NCBI GenBank assembly: GCA_010405405.1
Contig: MU004235.1
Location: forward strand, 1,130,538 to 1,194,537
DNA length: 64,000 nt
Direction: 5' to 3'
Source: Microthyrium microscopicum
Lineage: Eukaryota; Ascomycota; Dothideomycetes; Microthyriales; Microthyriaceae
Shown here one piece after another: positions 23,453 through 27,210 of this stretch; position 1 is the first letter of the stretch, and the number at the start of each line of letters is the position of its first letter. The notes beneath the pieces were generated by a model. The model was not told where the DNA came from. It did not search any database and was given only the letters and a program-made list of their open reading frames with translations. Made by a program: the position numbers and the translations under genes.

Positions 23453-24876
23453 ATGTCTTCTGCCGAGCCTCAAGTCGCGGCCACCGGCGTACCTACTACT
23501 GCTGCTGCAGAACCTCAAGTCACAGAACCTCAAGCTCTACCCTCAGTTGCGACAAAGCACATTGTCGTCCTAGGAGCCTCCTATGCCGGTCTCCAGGCCA
23601 CTCACCACATTCTCCGACACACAATCTCATCACTCCCGAATAAGGCGTCTTACCACGTAACTCTCGTCGATCCCTCCAGTAAGCACTAACTACACTCTTC
23701 CGAGTTGACTCGAGACCAAACTGACAATCCATAGCAACCTGGTTCAACCGTATCGCCGCCCCACGCGCCATCGTCTCCGAAGCAGCCCTCCCACTAGACA
23801 AAGTCCTATTCCCCATCGCCGAAGCCTTCAAGGCTTACCCCAAAGAACAATTCACTTTCGTCCAAGGAACCGCCAACGCCCTCGACACCACCACCCGTGC
23901 CGTCACCATTAGCAAAGCAGATGGCACCACCGAGTCCATTAGTTACTACGCGCTCGTTATCGCTGTTGGCGCCGCGTCTCCCTCACCACTACTAGGCGTA
24001 CAAGGTTCCCACGAGCACAGCGTGACGGCCATCAAAGCCTTCCGCGAAGCCTACCCCAATGCCAAATCCATCGTCATCGCAGGCGGCGGACCAGCTGGCG
24101 TGGAGACAGCCGGTGAACTCGGCCAAGCACTAAATGGCAGCGCCGGTCTCTTCGCCAAGCGACCAAAGGTCATTAAAACGAAAATCACACTCGTTACTGC
24201 CGACAAGAAACTCTTACCCGTACTACGACCTGCGCTCGCAGCCAAGGCCGAGAAGCTGCTAAATCGTGTTGGCGTGGATGTCGTATACAACACCCGCGTC
24301 GAGTCCACACTCCCCGAATTCGCCGGCCGTATCGACAGCGCAGGTAGTCTAGACAGCGTATTGAGCGCCACAAAATTCACGCTCAGTGATGGAACTGTGT
24401 TGGACGCAGATATCTACATTCCCGCAACTGGTCTCAGCGTCAACACAAAATGGCTTCCTAGAGACCTCCTCGATGACCGTGGTCGTGTAGCAAACGACAA
24501 GCATCTACGCGTAGCCAAGGCGGGTGCACGCGTATATGCAGTCGGTGATGTGGGTGCCCATGGACGTGGTGGTGCATTTGAGCTGATGCAGACATTACCT
24601 GTGGCACTGGTCAATATTGACCGGGACTTGAAGCACGATGCTACGCGGGAGAGTGGAAACGAGACAGCACCCAAGGGCAAGGACAATGAGTTTGATAATA
24701 AGCTACAGGAGAGCCAGTTGGTGCCCATTGGAAGCAAGGGTGTAGGTGCGGTATTTGGCTGGAAATTACCCAGCTTCATGGTCTGGTTGATCAAGGGACG
24801 GGATTATATGGTCAGCCGATCGCCTGGTACGGTCAATGGCGATGCTCAAAAGAAGCCCATCAAGTGGACAGGTTAA
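23453..24876 (+). CDS. AIF/AMID-type FAD-dependent NAD(P)H oxidoreductase
   Basis: Exons 23453-23678 and 23735-24876 encode 455 residues. Two Rossmann motifs are seen: the FAD site HIVVLGASYAGLQA (about residue 36) and the NAD(P)H site SIVIAGGGPAGVETAGEL (about 205). A later VYAVGDVGAHGRGG is the GD motif that contacts FAD. This order and length fit the family of apoptosis-inducing-factor-like proteins (AMID, FSP1-like, ferredoxin reductase fold). Such enzymes reduce quinones with NAD(P)H and some have roles in cell death. The N-terminus is Ala/Pro/Thr-rich with no obvious mitochondrial presequence. The C-terminus has a short hydrophobic stretch (SFMVWLI) that may bind membranes. Confidence 0.9.
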
Positions 24877-25213: not shown

Positions 25214-25929
25214 CTATTCAACTTCGGCAGACTTGCTCTCAAAGGTTTCGTTGTCCACCAATTCGGGGATATCATCATCGTCATCACCATCCTTGCCTTC
25301 ACCGGCCTTTTGCATGCTCTGGTAGCTTTCAGCAAGCTTGCGTAGCGATGCAAGTGAGTCTGGGCCGAGTTGGTTGAGGATACCGGGAACGAGTTCGGTC
25401 AGCTCCTTCTCTTCAGCGTTTCCGTAAATGGCGAACAGGTTGCTTGAGATTGCGGAGTGGACTTTGAACAGTTAGCAACGAGAGGTTCGGTTTCCAATGA
25501 GACGGCAAGACAAACCCTTGGGAGCTGAGAAGTGGATCACGTTGCCGTCGGACTTGAACATGTTGACTTCCTCAATGGCCTGGATAGGTTGAACATTGAG
25601 CTTCTTCAAGGATTGTTGCAGCTTCTTCTCATCCGTGCCACTGCTCTTGTGAACCTTCTTGATCTTTCTTCGCACAGTTCCCTTGCCGCTGTTCAGATAT
25701 GTAATTAGTCACTATTCCTTGATGGGACATTTTTGATATGTGGTCGTTTTGGTAGAATGAGGAAACAGGGTGAGGAGAATCTAGCAAAAGAGCTTGCTGA
25801 TCGATGAAAGTATAAACGTACCCTGATAATAAGTCAGCAATAGATCAAGTTGAATGTCTAGTACAGCTTTGAGAGAAACTTACCAATGCGAACCTGCGCT
25901 TGCATGCGCGCCAACTTTTCTGTATCCAT
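25214..25929 (-). CDS. EGD1: Nascent polypeptide-associated complex subunit beta
   Basis: Proposed exons are 25929-25884, 25822 (one nucleotide), 25688-25516 and 25461-25214, total 155 residues. NAC-beta features: [24 protein letters not shown], written as the ribosome-binding VRIGG...RRK-KK segment, then the NAC domain ([32 protein letters not shown]) and the conserved [17 protein letters not shown]. The acidic tail ends [11 protein letters not shown]. It pairs with NAC-alpha at the ribosome exit site. Between exon 1 and the RRK exon the only way I found to keep frame and the conserved Gly-Gly is a single G flanked by TATCAG and GTACGT. This gene is divergent from RRP41. Confidence 0.93.
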
Positions 25930-26339
25930 GTTTGCAGCGAGGAGTTGACGGGGGAATTGGGATGACAAGGAAGGCTGAGCAGTGCCAACAATTACAGTCG
26001 GCTCTGATAGAGATGATTGGAGGATGAAGGAGGGGAGGAGAGGTTGAGTGTGGTGTGACAGGCTCCGGCAGTCTTGAAGTTGAAGCAAAAGCTGTGAGAA
26101 ACTCTTGGTGGAGAGGTTCCTGACCGCCCGCCAGCCCACAGTGGCTCTTTCCTCATCCTCAGCAGTCGTTCCGCCTACCAATCAGCGCAATCCATCCGGA
26201 GAATTTGTTTTTCCGCTCCACGATTCTTTACCCCTGCATGGCCCAAGCTCCATTTTTTATATCGTCAAATCATCAGTTGTTCAAGAGCCTCAATGGATAT
26301 TTGTAGAATTACTAAGTTTCCTACTATCATAAATCAATC
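25930..26339. promoter_or_regulatory. Shared divergent promoter, NAC-beta / RRP41
   Basis: 410 bp between two outward-facing start codons, so it should serve both. A CCAAT motif (minus-strand ATTGG) lies at about 26176-26180 within CTACCAATCAGCG, a possible target of the HapB/C/E complex whose HapE subunit is encoded further right in this window. Confidence 0.6.
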
Positions 26340-27210
26340 ATGCCACTCGACACTTCCTCCTATTCTCTCGCCCTCTTACGCCTCGACGGCCGCCGTTGGA
26401 ACGAATTGCGCCGCATCCATGCCGTCATATCTTCTCAACCCGCCGCCGATGGCTCCAGCTATCTCGAAATGGGCAACACCAAAGTAATCTGCACCGTAAC
26501 CGGCCCCTCAGAGCAAAAGCGCACCGGCCCACAACAGCCCACCGGGCCCACTGCGTCTGCGCGCATCGACGTAGAAGTTAGTGTCGCCGGCTTCAGCAGC
26601 GTAGACCGCAAAAAGCGCTCGCGAACCGACAAGTAATACAGCCGCCATCCCAAGCAAGGACTACGAAAGTAGCTAACATTATAACAGACGCACCGCCGAA
26701 ATGCAACACATCCTCGTATCCGCCCTTAGCGACATAGTCCACACCCATCTCTACCCACACTCCACCATCCTTATCTCCCTCCACGTCCTCTCTCTCGACG
26801 GCGGTCTGCTCGCCGCACTCATCAACGCATCCACACTCGCGCTTGTCGACGCCGGTATCCCCATGTCCGATTACCTAGTCGCTTGTACGACAGGCAGCAC
26901 CGTAAACAACGCCTCTTCACGCGCTGTGCCTGCGCGCCAAACGATACCAGGCATCCGCAGTATGGCCAACGAGGTGGACGATCCACTGTTAGATCTGAAC
27001 GGGCTGGAGGAGCAAGATTTGCCGTTTGTGACGGTGGCGACGGTAGGGAGCGAGAAGGGTAGGGTGGCGGTGTGTTTTAGTGAGACGAGGATGATGGCGG
27101 AAAGATTGGAGGAGATGTTGGCGGTGGGGGTTGATGGGTGTCAGATGATTCGGAAGGTGTTGGATGCAAGTGTGAAGGCGCATGGACGCAGGATGTTGGA
27201 TGATACTTGA
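26340..27210 (+). CDS. RRP41: Exosome complex RNase PH-like subunit RRP41 (Ski6)
   Basis: Exons 26340-26632 and 26688-27210 encode 271 residues. The RNase PH fold is clear: LALLRLDGRRWNELR at the start, then GSSYLEMGNTKVICTVTGP, RTAEMQHILVSALSDIV, STILISLHVLSLDGGLLAALINASTLALVDAGIPM and a final strand set with the FVTVATVG segment. In eukaryotes this ring subunit is not catalytic; it helps thread RNA to Rrp44 in the nucleus and cytoplasm. Compared with yeast (about 246 residues), there are small insertions around the EQKRTGPQQPTGP and NNASSRAVPARQTIPG loops. The 55-nt intron splits the Lys-Arg before TAEMQ. Confidence 0.95.

Follow-up and report, generated by a model that had tools for sequence, protein, structure and literature searches.

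A putative one-nucleotide exon in the NAC-beta gene of Microthyrium microscopicum

How does the NAC-beta gene (BTF3/EGD1) of Microthyrium microscopicum encode its conserved VRIGGKGT motif, when the two exons that carry the halves of the motif do not fit each other in frame? NAC is a chaperone sitting on ribosomes, and the gene for its beta subunit is expected to be highly expressed. The coding region lies on the minus strand at 25929-25214 of the window, by which we mean the whole 64,000-nt stretch of contig MU004235.1 that was analysed. Here we present a reconstruction of this gene, in which the gap between the two exons probably holds an exon of a single G. Judged from the genomic letters, we give a real and obligatory one-nucleotide exon, spliced in two successive steps, a probability of about 0.85. 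The reconstructed gene has the following features, in the order of transcription.

25884..25929, minus strand: NAC-beta coding exon 1, ending ATT G (phase 1), with a gap-free alignment to the N-terminus of human BTF3
25823..25883, minus strand: intron 1, 61 nt, GTAAGT...TATCAG, assigned by splice-signal match
25833..25837, minus strand: branch-point match CTGAC in intron 1, by the fungal consensus CTRAY
25822..25822, minus strand: putative single-nucleotide exon G, second position of the codon for the first of the two adjacent Gly residues
25689..25821, minus strand: intron 2, 133 nt, GTACGT...GAACAG, assigned by splice-signal match
25704..25708, minus strand: branch-point match CTAAT in intron 2, by the same consensus
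25516..25688, minus strand: NAC-beta exon 3, starting C-GGC-AAG (GKGTVRRK...)
25462..25515, minus strand: intron 3, 54 nt, GTTTGT...CAAAG, the reading frame continuing across the junction
25214..25461, minus strand: NAC-beta exon 4 with the stop codon, by translation

The initial annotation had exon 1 ending ATT-G before GTAAGT and the next conserved exon starting C-GGC-AAG after ACAG, with a strong acceptor, one G and a strong donor in the interval, and all these letters are present: ATTG|GTAAGT at 25884/25883 and GAACAG|CGGCAAG at 25689/25688. The internal signals read TTATTATCAG|G|GTACGT (TATCAG-G-GTACGT) with the G at 25822, and the gap measures 195 nt, composed of 61 + 1 + 133. The foreseen frameshift on direct joining of exon 1 to exon 3 and the Gly-Gly-Lys on inclusion of the G were also recovered. 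The directly joined product stops after 42 residues in all, and the product with the G contains VRIGGKGT and is a full-length NAC-beta of 155 amino acids. Exactly one nucleotide lies between the acceptor AG and the donor GT, and it is needed both for the frame and for the conserved protein sequence. Each flanking intron has splice signals of its own that match the consensus, namely a GTAMGT donor, a branch-point match and an acceptor at the first AG. The branch-point A is located 11 nt before the end of intron 1 and 16 nt before the end of intron 2, with no AG between in either intron.

In the reconstructed protein the NAC domain PF01849 was matched with an E-value of 9.5e-24 (83.5 bits, cut-off 21.3). 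Human BTF3 shares 58% identity with it, and the alignment is gap-free across the first 124 columns, VRIGGKGT included. The protein carries the NAC domain together with the N-terminal VRIGGKGT..RRK stretch, as in BTF3, and is assigned to NAC-beta on these two features. Only one NAC-beta locus was found in the 36.9-Mb genome of 20 contigs. Two open frames on the plus strand neighbour the gene. A long one at window positions 23725-24876 lies tail to tail with NAC-beta and, by eye from its motifs, has the look of what we take to be an FAD-dependent oxidoreductase. The other is an ORF start at 26316-26636 (MPLDTSSYSLALLRLDGRRWNELRRI...), head to head with NAC-beta at a distance of about 400 bases, which by eye presumably represents the start of the exosome subunit RRP41.

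The same DNA was searched for other ways to join exon 1 and exon 3. With the outer ends fixed, there are seven two-intron models whose middle exon has a length of 1 modulo 3 and whose frame stays open. Among these seven the one-nucleotide exon has the top splice score (43.0) and is alone in producing VRIGGKGT; the next model, at 35.0, combines a 25-nt exon and a GC donor. This and all other splice scorings use consensus weights that were not fitted to this species. A codon-usage de novo intron finder, tried as a source of trained weights, was too noisy and was discarded (73 hits for GTRNGT donors versus 68 and 55 for two control donor patterns).

For single introns, the claim that no alternative AG or GT nearby corrects the frame was too strong, because a donor GTTTCT at 25879 restores it. 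Twenty single introns whose ends are GT/GC-AG or AT-AC bring the frame back; a wider count of 42 includes mixed ends such as GT-AC and falls to 20 with proper end pairs. For the exact motif the claim holds, as none of these 20 models yields VRIGGKGT. In three of them VRIG...GKGT is preserved around an insert, which is shortest in VRIGNGKGT and longer in the other two. Of all models examined that use standard splice sites, the one-nucleotide exon alone would give the conserved motif.

The VRIGNGKGT model, a single intron with GT-AG ends and one extra residue in the protein, appears very unlikely. Its weak donor GTTTCT lies 4 nt inside the perfect GTAAGT, with mismatches to it at +3, +4 and +5. 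T at +3 and +4 is nevertheless used in this gene, since the donor of its own intron 3 is GTTTGT. Some Aspergillus-group NAC-beta database entries read VRIGTGKGT, and by these one extra residue may be tolerated. Human BTF3, however, does without the extra residue, and the model leaves the internal AG-G-GT to chance.

Single introns with non-standard ends can also give VRIGGKGT, namely GT-CA (25883-25690), TA-AG (25882-25689) and AA-GC (25881-25688). Their mature mRNA would be identical to that of the one-nucleotide exon, so it cannot by itself tell the two apart. To our knowledge the spliceosome uses such ends rarely if ever, and the internal splice signals would stay unexplained, so that we regard an intron of this kind as extremely improbable.

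How often the internal signals arise by chance was estimated from shuffled and genomic sequence. In dinucleotide shuffles of the interior of the gap, AGGGT with both halves of at least 40 nt appeared in 490 of 20,000, Y-AG-G-GTRNGT in one of 20,000, and the latter together with a CTRAY branch point in none of 20,000. The pattern YAGGGTAMGT is found in the genome at 116 sites on both strands together, about 0.0003 per 195 nt, with 276 sites for the reversed control pattern. The looser YAGGGTRNGT has four sites, the NAC-beta site included, in 528 kb of strand (0.0014 per 195 nt), that is, on both strands of 264 kb made up of the window and 20 fetched stretches. No other AG-N-GT site in these 528 kb reaches the NAC-beta score for branch point, acceptor and donor combined; the score-matched rate is about 0.0002 per intron of such length, with the observed NAC-beta site counted. 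If exon lengths of 1, 4, ... 31 are allowed, one other site in the 528 kb reaches the score.

These rates bear on the reading that the assembly misses one base at an edge of the 195-nt stretch, which in the gene itself would be a single ordinary intron of about that length. A further G next to either the donor or the acceptor would alone restore VRIGGKGT, and loss of a base in a run of G is a common long-read error. The internal AG-G-GT, the branch point and GTACGT would then, however, be a coincidence of about 2e-4 per such intron (observed site counted), or of one in 20,000 by shuffling, and the intron would be long by the local standard described below. We consider a lost base improbable, though less so than the single introns with a weak donor or non-standard ends.

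The local standard was taken from ten proteasome gene stretches of the genome, nine of which, with ten exon gaps, were scored for introns with the same consensus weights under a frame constraint. Nine of the ten gaps gave intron solutions, and eight were accepted as introns, with lengths of 49-70 nt and the branch-point A 9-19 nt from the end; because the same splice weights picked them, these introns are not a fully independent check. One of them (L131) has two possible donors, giving 67 or 49 nt. The gap in L129 is an in-frame acidic insert, the second gap in L127, which gave no scored solution, appears by eye to be an insert plus an ordinary intron, and L123 has by eye one in-frame intron. 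NAC-beta intron 1 (61 nt, A at 11) falls within this standard. Intron 2, with 133 nt and its A at 16, exceeds all eight accepted introns in length. A single intron of 195 nt is long against the same 49-70 nt. No frameshift was seen in the ten stretches, a partly by-eye result that sets a weak bound on assembly error and counts to that extent against a lost base.

The NAC-beta site was also ranked against other sites of the genome. For 100 of the 116 YAGGGTAMGT sites, those listed, the surrounding 701 bases were scored for two-intron models. An open two-intron model is possible at 47 of these 100 sites, with NAC-beta first at 52.3 and the next at 43.1. By splice signals alone, among the best 30 of the 47, NAC-beta is again first (37.7, next 34.7). 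When neither a G nor a strong donor was demanded, the 264 kb contained 1579 AG-N-GT sites, and 85 models proved admissible; NAC-beta leads with 57.5, followed by a site in L012 with 53.1 and a third with 47.1. The runner-up (L012 position 3567, minus strand) was rejected as a one-nucleotide exon: it belongs to an ordinary gene in which a single 53-nt intron accounts for the site. Among the ranked candidates, with NAC-beta and the L012 runner-up examined, no second one-nucleotide exon was established. Several YAGGGTAAGT sites have an upstream GT at a matching distance, 86 nt for three of them and 88 nt for two (L039, L045 and L057; also L032 and L040), and could be repeat copies instead of exons.

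One-nucleotide exons are known from a few other genes. The initial annotation mentioned one plant gene, which is incomplete, as plant VPS55 (PMC8831610) and CYP621A of Fusarium (PMC12940212) belong here as well. In the account of Nelson and Syed (2026, PMC12940212), the CYP621A exon has an AGGGT core in all 24 genes and is covered by RNA reads in two species, and it is called there the first for a fungal gene. CYP621A resembles NAC-beta as a nuclear fungal gene with a G exon in an AGGGT core, where the G supplies the second position of a codon for Gly within a conserved motif; in both, ill-fitting exon phases led to detection (PMC12940212). It differs in being a rarely expressed P450 documented by 20 orthologues (24 genes in the discussion) and RNA reads (PMC12940212), whereas the NAC-beta case comes from one genome and its letters.

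The one-nucleotide exon of Arabidopsis APC11, as described by Guo and Liu (2015, PMC4674806), is likewise required to keep a core cellular gene in frame and is constitutive. In contrast to NAC-beta, it is an A within a 422-nt interval and was proven by cDNA and by GFP constructs in protoplasts (PMC4674806). APC11 and VPS55 are both reported to carry one-nucleotide exons across land plants (PMC8831610). In VPS55 the exon is followed by a strong donor, GTRAGT, comparable to GTACGT in NAC-beta, but this is a plant gene, its exon is conserved throughout the land plants, some of which show intron-retention transcripts, and it was confirmed by RT-PCR (PMC8831610). Mitochondrial one-nucleotide exons also exist, with other intron types (PMC12308204, PMC5436844). 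In PMC5639578, PMC9024468 and PMC6616335, micro-exon terms led to no passage about a one-nucleotide exon, and no publication on such an exon in NAC-beta was found among open-licence PMC texts.

Stwintrons, nested spliceosomal introns of fungi that include the [D1,2] type, resemble the NAC-beta arrangement in that two introns lie at one place and must be removed consecutively (PMC12403724, PMC9024468). In the [D1,2] type the inner intron interrupts the outer donor directly after its first base, whereas in NAC-beta GTACGT is intact and separated from the inner AG by a G. A [D1,2] stwintron was rejected for NAC-beta on the ground that its outer donor is uninterrupted: the inner AG is followed by a G and then by a complete GT.

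With a one-nucleotide exon as the preferred reading, splicing of NAC-beta would proceed by intron definition, the spliceosome taking out the two introns one after the other. Removal would have to be consecutive, because the overlapping AG-G-GT sites cannot both be occupied at once. The short upstream intron of 61 nt would most likely be excised first, although the reverse order is also possible. Its removal would leave ATTG-G|GTACGT, a complete donor with G at -1, and the second intron would then be excised with this restored GTACGT. The single G would supply the second letter of a GGC codon for Gly and complete VRIGGKGT; skipping of the G would lead to the frameshifted peptide of 42 residues. 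The letters, the frame, the splice-signal matches and the lack of the motif in every standard single intron examined are direct results; we infer that the G is used in RNA, that splicing takes this order and that inclusion is constitutive.

The exon might further be old and common to a fungal lineage, a wider proposal that we rate as unlikely, if somewhat less so than a lost base. NAC-beta annotations in that lineage would then be wrong at VRIGGK, every NAC-beta mRNA would need two mutually exclusive spliceosome assemblies, and skipping, with its 42-residue product, would tie the amount of chaperone to splicing efficiency. Protein and two-row alignment queries found no NAC-beta orthologue in the viral contig or genome contig collections.

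The NAC-beta exon most likely joins a very small known group formed by those of APC11, VPS55 and CYP621A. If confirmed, NAC-beta would be the second fungal nuclear gene with a one-nucleotide exon, a core translation-associated gene that shares the AGGGT form with the one from Fusarium. This would suggest that introns placed in invariant motifs repeatedly give rise to one-nucleotide exons, and that conserved genes are mis-modelled by gene finders at such motifs.
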